NCBI RefSeq assembly: GCF_900115475.1
Contig: NZ_FOWP01000003.1
Span: forward strand, 124,001 to 188,000
Source of the DNA: Ectopseudomonas composti
GTDB taxonomy: Bacteria; Pseudomonadota; Gammaproteobacteria; Pseudomonadales; Pseudomonadaceae
Reading direction: 5' to 3'
Length of the DNA stretch: 64,000 nt
The notes beneath the pieces were generated by a model, which was not told where the DNA came from, made no database searches, and was given only the letters and a program-made list of their open reading frames with translations. This document shows, one piece after another, positions 4,508 through 53,031 of this stretch. The position numbers and the translations under genes were made by a program. Numbering within the stretch: the first letter of the stretch is position 1; each line of letters begins with the position of its first letter.

Positions 4508-4756
4508 TTCGCAAGTTGCTATACCTGTAACACCTGCGAGTCCGACTCTGGTCGGCCTCGCAGTAAAGCCAGAGCCGCAGCCCACAAAGCCGCGGCTCAT
4601 ACTCGAAAAATATGACGACCAGCAGGGGCATCCGGGCTGGTACCCGGACTATCTGCGGGAACCCAAGTGGCTTTATCCGAGTCGCAGCATCATGACTTTG
4701 ATTAGGACCATGCGGTATTCGCGCCGATGGTGTCCCCTTACCGAGGGTGACCAAGC
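4508..4756 (+). promoter_or_regulatory. Structured sucA leader (probable sucA-II type RNA motif)
   Basis: The gap between sdhB and sucA contains several clear hairpins. At 4534-4563 a 7-bp stem (CTGCGAG) is stacked on a 5-bp stem (CCGAC). At 4572-4598 GAGCCGC pairs with GCGGCTC. At 4631-4648 there is a 6-bp stem (TCCGGG). None is followed by a T-run, so these are not simple terminators. A conserved 5' leader motif called sucA-II has been described upstream of sucA in pseudomonads; identity with it is inferred from position and structure, not from a covariance search. The sucA ribosome site GAGGGTG ends the region. Confidence 0.6.
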
Positions 4757-10382: not shown

Positions 10383-10621
10383 GCGTGGCAGTGGCCGACC
10401 TGTTCGGCCACTCAAGTTGTTGTAAGCCACCGGGTAGGCGGGGCGTCGCGTAATCGCCTCGTCGCTGCGGTGGTGTTTGCAAGCAGAACCACGTCGGAAG
10501 GCCCGCGTCGAGTTCGACTCGCGGTGGAATATCTGGCGGACTGCTTCGGCAGTCACAGGTGGCGCGGTATCAAAAGTACAGCGCCGAATGCGCAATACCT
10601 AAACGAAGACGGTAGACAAGC
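10383..10621 (+). promoter_or_regulatory. Structured sucC leader (probable sucC RNA motif)
   Basis: The 239 nt between lpd and sucC fold into several hairpins. AGTGGCCGA pairs with TCGGCCACT at 10390-10412, CGAGT with ACTCG around 10508-10520, and a perfect GACTGC-TTCG-GCAGTC tetraloop hairpin lies at 10539-10554. The first lacks a T-run. A sucC leader RNA motif has been described in Pseudomonas at this position; assignment here rests on location and structure. The sucC ribosome site is weak, so translational control through the leader is plausible. Confidence 0.6.
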
Positions 10622-18364: not shown

Positions 18365-18504
18365 GGGGCTTCTAAAAACGTAGGCGAGGCAGCCAGCGCA
18401 AGGCAAAAACGGGCGAAAAAGCGGAGTTTACGAGTTGTAAATGAGCATTTTGAGCCTGTTTTTAACGCAGCGATGGCAACGCAGGTAGTTTTTAGAGGTG
18501 CCCC
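18365..18504 (-). repeat. Palindromic dispersed element, copy 1 (short form, in htpG leader)
   Basis: This is a 140-bp element with imperfect inverted ends: GGGGC then TTCTAAAAAC on the left, and the complement of GGGGCACCTCTAAAAAC on the right. It contains the core TTTACGAGTTGTAAA (reverse orientation relative to copies 2 and 3). An inner stem pairs AAAAACGGGC (18405-18414) with GCCTGTTTTT (18454-18463), with one G-U pair. It lacks the extra small hairpin seen in the two longer copies. Confidence 0.85.
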
Positions 18505-29371: not shown

Positions 29372-29407
29372 GAGGGCAATCCTTGGCGAGCGACAGGCGC
29401 CTTTCCA

Positions 29408-29589
29408 GGTTGTGTGAAAACTACTGCGCTCGATCATGCTGCGTTAAAAACAGGCTCGTGCGCGAGTCCGATCAAAATGCTCATTTACAACTCGTAAACT
29501 CGAATGCGAGCCCAGTGCGTTCTTCGCCTGTTTTGCGGGGCCGCCATCGGTATTGCCTGACCTTCGCTCGCTACGTTTTCACACGGCCT
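29408..29589 (+). repeat. Palindromic dispersed element, copy 2
   Basis: This 182-bp element lies between the pirin stop and the start of the exported-protein gene. Its ends are GGTTGTGTGAAAAC and the complement of GGCCGTGTGAAAAC. Inside, AAAACAGG (29447-29454) pairs with CCTGTTTT (29528-29535), CTCG-TGCG-CGAG forms a small hairpin at 29455-29466, the core TTTACAACTCGTAAA is at 29484-29498, and CTCG-AATG-CGAG is at 29499-29510. It is about 85% like copy 3 across its right half, but its stem sequences differ. Confidence 0.88.
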
Positions 29590-29619
29590 GTTTCAGCGCC
29601 TGTCTGCGGTTGAGCGGTT

Positions 29620-51488: not shown

Positions 51489-51543
51489 GCCTGAGCGGGC
51501 CGGCTTGACCGGCCCTGTTTTCAACGCACAAGGAGCGCTCCCC

Positions 51544-51987
51544 ATGGGATTGTGGCAACGAACGCCCGATATCGATGCACTCAACGCGACCCTGAAAAAC
51601 AGCATTGGCGAGGTACTGGACATTCGCTTCGAAGCCTTCGACGACGAATCGCTCAGCGCCAGCATGGTGATCGACTCACGTACCCATCAGCCTTACGGCC
51701 TGTTGCATGGCGGCGCGTCAGTGGTGCTGGCGGAAACACTGGGCTCCACCGCCAGCTACCTGTGCATCGACAGCAGTCGTTTCTACTGCGTCGGCCTGGA
51801 GGTCAACGCCAACCACCTGCGTGGCCTGCGCAGTGGACGTGTGCACGCGGTGGCGCGGCCAGTGCATCTGGGGCGTACCACGCATGTCTGGGACATTCGC
51901 CTCAATGGCGACGACGGCAAGGCCAGTTGCATCTCGCGGCTGACCATGGCCATCGTGCCCTTGGGCGAGCAGCCTCCGAAGCTCTGA
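51544..51987 (+). CDS. Hotdog-fold thioesterase (YdiI/PA1618 type)
   Basis: The 147-residue hotdog thioesterase starts MGLWQRTPDIDALN and has the motif QPYGLLHGGASVVLAETLGS near residue 48. The glutamate in LAET is the expected catalytic base of the YdiI-type group. Such enzymes hydrolyse aromatic or hydroxynaphthoyl-CoA esters with broad range. It follows the acyl-CoA synthetase after 55 nt with a good AAGGAG site. Its stop codon abuts the palindromic repeat, whose first base is the last base of the TGA. Confidence 0.9.
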   Translation: MGLWQRTPDIDALNATLKNSIGEVLDIRFEAFDDESLSASMVIDSRTHQPYGLLHGGASVVLAETLGSTASYLCIDSSRFYCVGLEVNANHLRGLRSGRVHAVARPVHLGRTTHVWDIRLNGDDGKASCISRLTMAIVPLGEQPPKL

Positions 51988-52172
51988 GAGCCTGTTCAAA
52001 GTCTGCTGCGCGTCGGCCATGCTGTGTTGAAATCAAGCTGGAACGCCAGCCCGGTCAAGTGCTCATTTACAACTCGTAAACTCGAATGCGAGCCCAGTGC
52101 GTTCTTCGCTTGATTCGCGGGGCCGCCATCGGTATTGCCTGGCTCTAGCTCGCTAGCCTTTGAAAAGGCTCT
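51987..52172 (+). repeat. Palindromic dispersed element, copy 3
   Basis: This 186-bp element fills most of the gap between the thioesterase and the AraC gene. Its ends AGAGCCTGTTCAAAG and the complement of AGAGCCTTTTCAAAG match at 14 of 15 positions. AATCAAGC (52031-52038) pairs with GCTTGATT (52108-52115), CTGG-AACG-CCAG forms a hairpin at 52038-52049, the core TTTACAACTCGTAAA is at 52066-52080 and CTCG-AATG-CGAG at 52081-52092. It could also act as the terminator of the thioesterase transcript. Confidence 0.88.
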
Positions 52173-52227
52173 GATATCTGCAATTTCATCCAAGATTTGC
52201 CTGATCCATGGCGCTACAGTACGCGTC

Positions 52228-53031
52228 ATGGACCAGATCACTCACATTCAAAGCAGCTTGCCCGGCGTTCGCCTGATCGACGCCGAGTACCGCCGCTTCG
52301 CCTTTCCCCGGCATTTTCATCTGGAGTACCACGTCGGCCTGCTGATTCAGGGGCAGCATCGCTACGCCTATGGTGGTGAGCGTCGGCATGTCGGGGCAGG
52401 GGACGTGCTGCTGATGGCGCCGGAAGGGATTCATGACGGCGCCTGCCTGGAGGGTCAGAGTTACCGCATACGAGTGATGGCCTTCGATCCCTCCTGGTTG
52501 GATGAAGCCAGTCGCACCTTGAGTGGCGGCTGTCAGGGCGCGCCGCGTTTGACCACCAGCAGCTTGCGCCATCCTTTGTTATCGCAACATCTGCAGCGAT
52601 TTCACGCGGCGATGCTGGAGGGTTCGCAACTGGCGCAGGAAGAGACGCTCTGGCAGGCATTGGCCCATCTGCTGGAAATGGGTTCGACCTTGCGCGTCAG
52701 CGAGCCGGACCGTGTCTTCGACGCGCGCACTTGGCAGCAACTGCGTGACTGGCTGGAGAGCCGCCTGGACGATCCGCCCGCGCTGGAGGAAATCGCCGCC
52801 TTCTGCGCCATGAGCCCCTGGCAGGCTCTGCGGCGTTTCCGTCAGCACACCGGCTTGCCACCGCATCAGTGGCTGATGCAGCTGCGTCTGCAACGGGCGT
52901 TGCCGCTGGTGTTGGCCGGGCAGCCCTTGAGCGATATCGCCTTGCGCCTGGGCTTCTATGATCAGGCGCATTTCTCGCGGCTGTTCCGCCGCACCTACGG
53001 TCTGCCACCTGCGCGCCTGCGTCAGGGCTGA
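52228..53031 (+). CDS. AraC-family transcriptional regulator
   Basis: The 267-residue protein has an N-terminal cupin-like ligand domain (FPRHFHLEYHVGLLIQG near residue 28; a His-rich entry loop) and a C-terminal pair of helix-turn-helix motifs. These are ALEEIAAFCAMSPWQALRRFRQHTGLPPHQWLMQLRL at 188-224 and LSDIALRLGFYDQAHFSRLFRRTYGLPP at 233-260. It is followed by a LysE-type exporter on the same strand, so it probably controls that gene in response to the exported compound. The ATG at 52228 is preferred to upstream in-frame starts within or just after the repeat. Confidence 0.88.
   Translation: MDQITHIQSSLPGVRLIDAEYRRFAFPRHFHLEYHVGLLIQGQHRYAYGGERRHVGAGDVLLMAPEGIHDGACLEGQSYRIRVMAFDPSWLDEASRTLSGGCQGAPRLTTSSLRHPLLSQHLQRFHAAMLEGSQLAQEETLWQALAHLLEMGSTLRVSEPDRVFDARTWQQLRDWLESRLDDPPALEEIAAFCAMSPWQALRRFRQHTGLPPHQWLMQLRLQRALPLVLAGQPLSDIALRLGFYDQAHFSRLFRRTYGLPPARLRQG

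Follow-up and report, generated by a model that had tools for sequence, protein, structure and literature searches.

Three short dispersed sequences in a stretch of 64,000 nucleotides of the Ectopseudomonas composti genome (contig NZ_FOWP01000003.1, positions 124,001 to 188,000; hereafter the window) have one core in common and differ in the parts that base-pair, which raises the question of what kind of element they represent, by what means it was dispersed and why its stems remain paired. The core TTTACAACTCGTAAA occurs exactly at 52066 (+), 29484 (+) and 18427 (-), and six core matches with at most three mismatches are found in the window against 0.23 expected, the near-palindrome being counted on both strands. 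A first, sequence-only reading of this DNA had reported three elements sharing a core, with terminal arms, inner stems and small hairpins that change between copies and stay paired, and all of these parts are present as it described them. The features are as follows.

51988..52171 (+): copy 3, class C element of 184 bp, with terminal repeats GAGCCTGTTCAAAG/CTTTGAAAAGGCTC and a TGA duplication
51985..51987 (+): left target duplication TGA, doubling as stop codon of the 4HBT-thioesterase ORF 51505-51987
52172..52174 (strand not assigned): right target duplication TGA
51988..52001 (+): class C left terminal inverted repeat of copy 3
52158..52171 (+): class C right terminal inverted repeat of copy 3
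52031..52038 (+): inner stem 5' arm AATCAAGC of copy 3, whose partner is 52108-52115
52108..52115 (+): inner stem 3' arm GCTTGATT of copy 3
52038..52049 (+): site-1 hairpin module CTGG-AACG-CCAG of copy 3
52066..52080 (+): core terminal hairpin TTTAC-AACTC-GTAAA of copy 3
52081..52092 (+): site-2 hairpin module CTCG-AATG-CGAG of copy 3
52117..52138 (+): site-3 module GCGGGGCCGCCATCGGTATTGC of copy 3
29406..29590 (+): copy 2, class B element of 185 bp, with a TTTC duplication at 29402-29405 and 29591-29594
about 18365..18504 (-): copy 1, class E element of about 140 bp, a short form without extra modules

No matching target duplication was found in the flanks of copy 1. This copy lies just upstream of an ORF that, from reading it by eye, we take to be htpG, so that the minus strand of the element is in the sense strand of that gene. 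With DNA parameters, copy 3 folds equally well on both strands (-37.7 on each), and neither an intrinsic terminator nor a sigma-70 promoter was found around it, in positions 51800-52400 of the window.

These copies belong to a large family, in which a hairpin core of some 80 nt can be supplemented by hairpin modules at three fixed sites. The E. composti genome holds 24 cores with at most one mismatch, and a covariance model made from 15 copies gave 78 matches in it at E <=0.01, corresponding to 71 places once 7 second-strand matches are subtracted; the weakest of these places are truncated elements. The model has matches in 31 of 38 genomes and, in a search without outgroup control, in 91 of 274 evenly drawn Gammaproteobacteria genomes, E. 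composti being counted in both cases; this class-wide survey places the element in 77 of 222 genera. Distant copies, where they were read out, display the same core with ends such as CTAG-CAGGCTGTTGAAAAAC, and one core is common to all classes of ends described below and to many families of Gammaproteobacteria. A genome of the same order and of another family (G029) has 37 matches, which suggests an independent expansion outside the genus. Among plasmids and phages, distant matches occur in 7 and 1 records, respectively, none of them reaching 80% coverage.

The ends of the element are more diverse than its core. Both ends can be assigned to one class, with at most 6 mismatches, in 257 of 324 copies (the other 67 are untyped), and among the aligned copies the terminal inverted repeats fall into several classes, A, B, C, D, E and F, three of which are represented in the window by copy 3 (C), copy 2 (B) and copy 1 (E). 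Target duplications were counted on 253 unique typed copies, with expectations taken from non-self pairs. Class A (CAGGCYGTTGAAAAAC) has a 4 bp duplication, mostly YTAR, in 37 of 91 copies (9.9 expected), class B (CAGRCTGTGTGAAAAC) one of 4 bp in 12 of 33 (0.34 expected), class C (GARCCTGTTCA...) the 3 bp duplication TNA in 35 of 92 (10.6 expected) and class E (GGGGCACCTCTAAAAAC) one of 2 bp in 10 of 21 (2.1 expected), the excess in these four classes having p values from 1e-5 to 4e-16. The 2 bp duplication TA of class D (GGGTCTGTACGAAAAG), present in 7 of 11 copies, is not above the expected 5.6, and class F (GAGGGCGTCTACAAATT) has a 3 bp duplication in 1 of 5.

Several of these ends are also those of insertion sequences elsewhere in the genus. 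Partners were found for class A in G012 and G073, with CTAG/CTAG flanks and transposases of the IS5 family, and for class B in G018, with TTCG/TTCG flanks and a transposase of the IS1182 family, the transposases of both classes being above the cut-off. The class D partners, in G008 and G001, have ends with one or two mismatches, TA/TA flanks and an IS5_3-like transposase fragment below the cut-off, and the class E partner, in G076, has approximate ends only and an IS5-family transposase. A class C partner was not found with PF13340, PF05598 or PF13586, each searched in 15 genomes. The E. composti genome itself has no PF13340 or PF13586 match and only two partial PF05598 matches; one of the latter is cut off by the end of a contig, so that a complete copy may have escaped the draft assembly. 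Elements and partners have their terminal 15-17 bp in common, and no similarity to the core or the subterminal parts of the element was detected within 5-6 mismatches in 11 insertion-sequence loci. The IS5- and IS1182-family insertion sequences agree with classes A, D and B of the element in their terminal 15-17 bp and in their target duplications; they differ in carrying a transposase, and the interior of the element is not in the loci examined. The element has several attributes of miniature inverted-repeat transposable elements (MITEs), namely terminal inverted repeats, duplications of fixed length (A, B, C and E) and empty orthologous sites. A parent carrying the same ends was seen for A, B and D, approximated for E and not found for C. 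MITEs usually, though not necessarily, have an interior that comes from their parent, and this was not seen in the 11 loci.

Empty sites are available for all three window copies, each of which is absent in two or three sister genomes, as expected from clean insertion at orthologous loci. The site of copy 3 is empty in G077, G076 and G091, with flanks 88-91% identical, and these genomes read TAA where E. composti has the TGA stop preceding the element; a relative of copy 3 (91%) is present at an unrelated place in G077. At the site of copy 2, the flanks are exactly contiguous in G076, the 189 bp missing there being equivalent to the element and one duplication; G091 and G077 likewise lack this copy. 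The site of copy 1 is empty in G077 and G012, and contains in G076 and G091 120 bp that do not align.

The location of copy 3 on a stop codon is a frequent situation. The duplication coincides exactly with the end of a coding-like ORF in class C (51 of 92 copies), class A (48 of 91) and class F (3 of 5), and this is rare elsewhere (2 of 33 in B, 0 of 11 in D and 1 of 21 in E). Class A has 20 further ORF ends served by a stop at +11 within the element end, 12 on the left and 8 on the right. The TNA and YTAR targets can contain the stops TGA, TAA and TAG; because the stop-containing target is duplicated, the stop of the gene is intact after insertion, which accounts for about half of the class A and class C copies being located on a stop codon. 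Class C copies at stop codons are biased in orientation towards the plus strand (39 left and 12 right, p 0.0002), and those of class A are not (29 and 19, p 0.19).

Changes in the paired parts are compensated throughout the family. In an alignment of 66 chosen sequences, for which 48 were retained out of 64 Pseudomonas representatives (the 16 set aside being long forms or fitting poorly) and 18 out of 19 distant ones, 24 of 26 pairs have changed on both sides and 94.2% of the cells are paired, a value that is favourable beside the 92.6% of Watson-Crick cells (3448 of 3725) at the 25 mostly paired pairs of 149 distinct short forms drawn from 215 copies. Two of the 27 pairs, paired in just 71 and 86 of these 149 forms, are left out of the latter total. 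For the 66 sequences the covariation score is 0.549, against 0.188 +/- 0.008 after shuffling and at most 0.135 after sliding. The excess of compensatory over one-sided changes that the sequence-only reading had anticipated among genomic copies is upheld in this chosen sample, where two-sided changes affect 346 cells (91.5 when shuffled) and one-sided ones 42. Its description of compensated arms holds for the stems, which covary family-wide, and less well for the terminal arms: the three window copies carry ends of classes C, B and E, and part of what looked like compensation there is therefore the swapping of whole ends. Four long forms in E. composti (L230, L231, L213 and L224) have three extra site-1 hairpins which, by eye, differ between copies in a paired way.

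The mismatches that remain in the core are distributed unequally between strands. Counted once per cluster on the plus strand, the core helices H1-H3 contain 61 A-C against 20 G-T mismatches (p 6e-6), of which 30 versus 8 are at pairs that are mostly G-C and 31 versus 12 at pairs that are mostly A-T; these A-C mismatches are G-U or G-T wobbles on the minus strand. The outer stem (H4, H5) does not follow this pattern, with 25 A-C versus 37 G-T clusters (p 0.16; 26 and 70 unclustered rows), and its G-T excess is mostly due to one pair, G-T in 29 class C rows. Located at (-36,+35) from the core hairpin, this pair reads G-T on the plus strand of those rows and G-C in classes A and B, a class-specific condition opposed to the strand bias of the core. 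All 27 pairs together give 86 A-C versus 57 G-T (p 0.02), and 79 versus 33 are obtained without two weakly paired positions, the outer G-T pair being paired in less than 60% of rows. At unpaired sites, C>T changes number 36 over 9 positions and G>A changes 6 over 3, so that the result at G-C pairs is not what a mutation bias between C and G would predict; the asymmetry at A-T pairs, for which only one unpaired A position is countable, could still come from mutation bias. The minus strand, which reads TTTACGAGTTGTAAA, is the better folder in 216 of 249 copies with RNA parameters and in 231 of 249 with DNA parameters, and 130 of 149 short forms have GA/GA in internal loop 2 of this strand, tandem G-A pairs being stable. 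The proposal of the sequence-only reading that a folded single strand is under selection is thus sustained for the core, by covariation, the 61/20 bias and minus-strand folding, and does not extend to the outer stem, where the bias is absent (25/37). One strand of the core seems to be kept foldable, and these results fit selection on one folded core strand, being neutral between RNA and single-stranded DNA.

In tandem gene contexts the plus-strand orientation is found 67 times against 42 for the other (p 0.02), 16 of 215 copies with short flanks being omitted, as well as 11 more without two neighbours (5 intragenic and 6 unclear). Because of this orientation and of the 39/12 bias of class C copies at stops, the better-folding strand is the scarcer one in sense messages, which argues against a simple role as terminator or mRNA protector; what remains is an effect at the element's own level, as RNA or single-stranded DNA. 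With respect to replication, 58 of 98 copies are co-directional (p 0.085) among the matches listed for G091 and G077, where 120 and 76 exist, assuming that the records begin at the origin; a replication-strand bias is thus not established.

Copies at orthologous places inform on how the element changes once inserted. Among 229 copies, mostly better-scoring ones, a sampling that favours conserved pairs (71 from E. composti, 50 each from G077 and G091, 39 from G001, 9 from G076, 6 from G022 and 4 from G018), 20 orthologous filled pairs were obtained at 18 loci. One of them was set aside: L432 of G091 and L147 of E. composti are different elements at the same TNA site with orthologous flanks, so that this site either received two insertions independently or had its element completely replaced. 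Of the other 19 pairs, which represent 17 loci, 8 differ in their interior modules although ends and flanks agree, for example none versus three modules (L151 of E. composti and L389 of G077) or 156 versus 283 nt (L403 of G091 and L230 of E. composti). The switch between L392 and L428 concerns two single-contig genomes, so that assembly error cannot be the whole explanation of these differences. The interior of L214 is 96% like that of L008 in the same E. composti genome, as gene conversion would give, and for the other seven switches the candidate donors are weaker, with none so close in the genomes concerned among the copies sampled, this sampling being incomplete. Compensation is also present in place, and it is thin: 938 base pairs compared show 3 double compensations and 46 single-sided changes, 19 with pairing kept and 27 with pairing broken, some of the latter stemming from module switches. 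Two of the three double changes are in L144/L301 (C-G to G-C and A-T to G-C).

The relationship between cores and ends was further evaluated on a tree of cores, comprising 90 rows and in which few branches are resolved. It implies 23 changes of end class, between the minimum of 4 and the mean of 47.3 after shuffling, which indicates that cores and ends reassort, yet non-randomly; its starred branches force at least 5 changes for class C and at least 4 for class A.

Taken together, these results make it probable that the family is a MITE-like, non-autonomous transposon of Gammaproteobacteria that is transposed in trans by DDE transposases, reassorts its modules and ends, and undergoes selection on the folded minus strand of its core. 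The element would consist of two parts, ends and core, with partly separate histories. Transposases of insertion sequences would cut and paste it in trans, and recombination or gene conversion among copies would swap modules and combine cores and ends anew. The pairing would be preserved because the minus strand of the core is selected for its fold, either as RNA (slightly favoured) or as single-stranded DNA. Stop codons within the duplicated class A (YTAR) and class C (TNA) targets let the host gene retain its stop. A bolder version, to which we give distinctly less credit and which we propose only tentatively, depicts the core as a selfish folded molecule distributed over the whole class, an RNA or single-stranded DNA untied to any transposase, which would adopt whichever IS5- or IS1182-type ends are available, switch modules in place and spare its host through duplicated stops.

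The termini and duplications would also fit a more conventional origin, in which each class is an ordinary MITE formed by deletion from a separate insertion sequence. The pairing would result from inverted-repeat matching and arm-to-arm template switching, the fold having no function. The double changes in L144/L301 would then each require one step of arm copying, and the lack of the predicted kind of strand bias in the outer stem also agrees with this origin. We nevertheless find it rather doubtful, considering that the 11 insertion-sequence loci have only the terminal 15-17 bp in common with the element, that a single core extends across end classes and many families, and that arm copying is strand-symmetric, yet the core is biased (61/20) and its minus strand folds better (216/249). 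An unlikely explanation is that of a domesticated structured RNA at gene ends, acting as regulator, terminator or 3'-end protector, whose mobility belongs to the past. The better folding of one strand and the location of copies at stop codons point in this direction, as does conservation in the 19 orthologous pairs, where 91 of 2744 positions differ within the element and 120 of 2225 in the near flanks (0 of 146 against 13 of 120 for L153 of E. composti and L324 of G076). However, the pairs compared are mostly high-scoring, which favours conserved ones; the siting at stop codons follows from the targets that classes A and C use, classes B, D and E being seldom found there; and the window copies are each absent in sister genomes. 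Moreover, sense messages contain the better-folding strand less frequently, the promoter search at copy 3 gave nothing, and Rfam (release 15) gave no match at the three window elements with gathering thresholds nor at the elements of the 11 loci with E up to 1, the two weak matches of the latter search being outside the elements. A known structured RNA family was rejected on this absence of Rfam matches at the elements tested.

The sequence-only reading had also compared the element with REP sequences, moved as single-stranded DNA by a Y1 (RAYT) transposase. REP and REPIN sequences are palindromic, dispersed hairpins, as the present element is, one strand of its hairpin folds better, and the E. 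composti genome has two Y1_Tnp genes (L503 and L504, the two matches to Y1-type, RAYT-like transposases). The comparison did not survive the analysis of the ends: in contrast with REP, REPIN and RAYT systems, the termini and duplications of the element are those of DDE transposition, with inverted repeats common to DDE insertion sequences in three classes and duplications of 2, 3 or 4 bp according to the class, and no core-like sequence was found in the 3.3-kb loci of the two Y1_Tnp genes. A REP- or BIME-like element mobilised in this way was therefore rejected and appears highly improbable.

By its termini the element is MITE-like and in kind close to MITEPsy1, from which it differs by one structured core, several end classes and two insertion-sequence families. 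MITEPsy1 of Pseudomonas syringae, of 100 nt and with a single end type GGAAGGTCTGAAAAAGCC, is reported to transpose in vivo (PMC3189936); like class A, it is a small Pseudomonas MITE with IS5-type ends and a 4-nt duplication, CTAG or YTAA. The part of its description considered here mentions no core common to several end classes, no covariation and no modules, and its printed terminal repeats differ from our class consensuses, the comparison bearing on ends and description only (PMC3189936). In P. fluorescens, the dispersed intergenic repeats R0, R2, R178 and others form hairpins and include some that have inverted repeats and were proposed as MITEs, and R178 is present in all three strains in the portion of that study drawn upon here (PMC2718517); R178 could be a relative of the element, to which it is likened by description only. 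TIMEs are likewise non-autonomous Pseudomonas elements forming long RNA hairpins; unlike the present family they derive from Tn3, and the part of their description used for this comparison reports no core common to several transposase families (PMC4133298). A description of the present family was not found in searches of open-licence literature, which gave no match to the core string in either orientation.

Bacterial MITEs are usually described as the wrecks of one insertion sequence. Here one folded core is found under ends of several transposase classes and across much of a bacterial class, and its covariation is unexpected for a mobile element. Two questions become testable: whether a non-autonomous element can change transposase by changing both its ends, and whether a mobile element can have a folded single strand under selection. 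The duplication of a stop-containing target, by which the gene keeps its stop, also provides a simple rule for harmless insertion.

A few local arrangements complete this survey. Three copies (L146, L162 and L166) are gathered within 2.7 kb on one E. composti contig (C13, about 103921-106615), and a similar cluster exists on contig C7 of G001 (L253). In G022, three identical or near-identical class B copies with a TACC duplication (L237, L238 and L239) are located inside what reads by eye as REP-like Pseudomonas sequence, and a further copy (L240) has its interior present twice with N between. The window also contains, at 4534-4753 and 10552-10620, the Rfam motifs sucA-II and sucC RNA.
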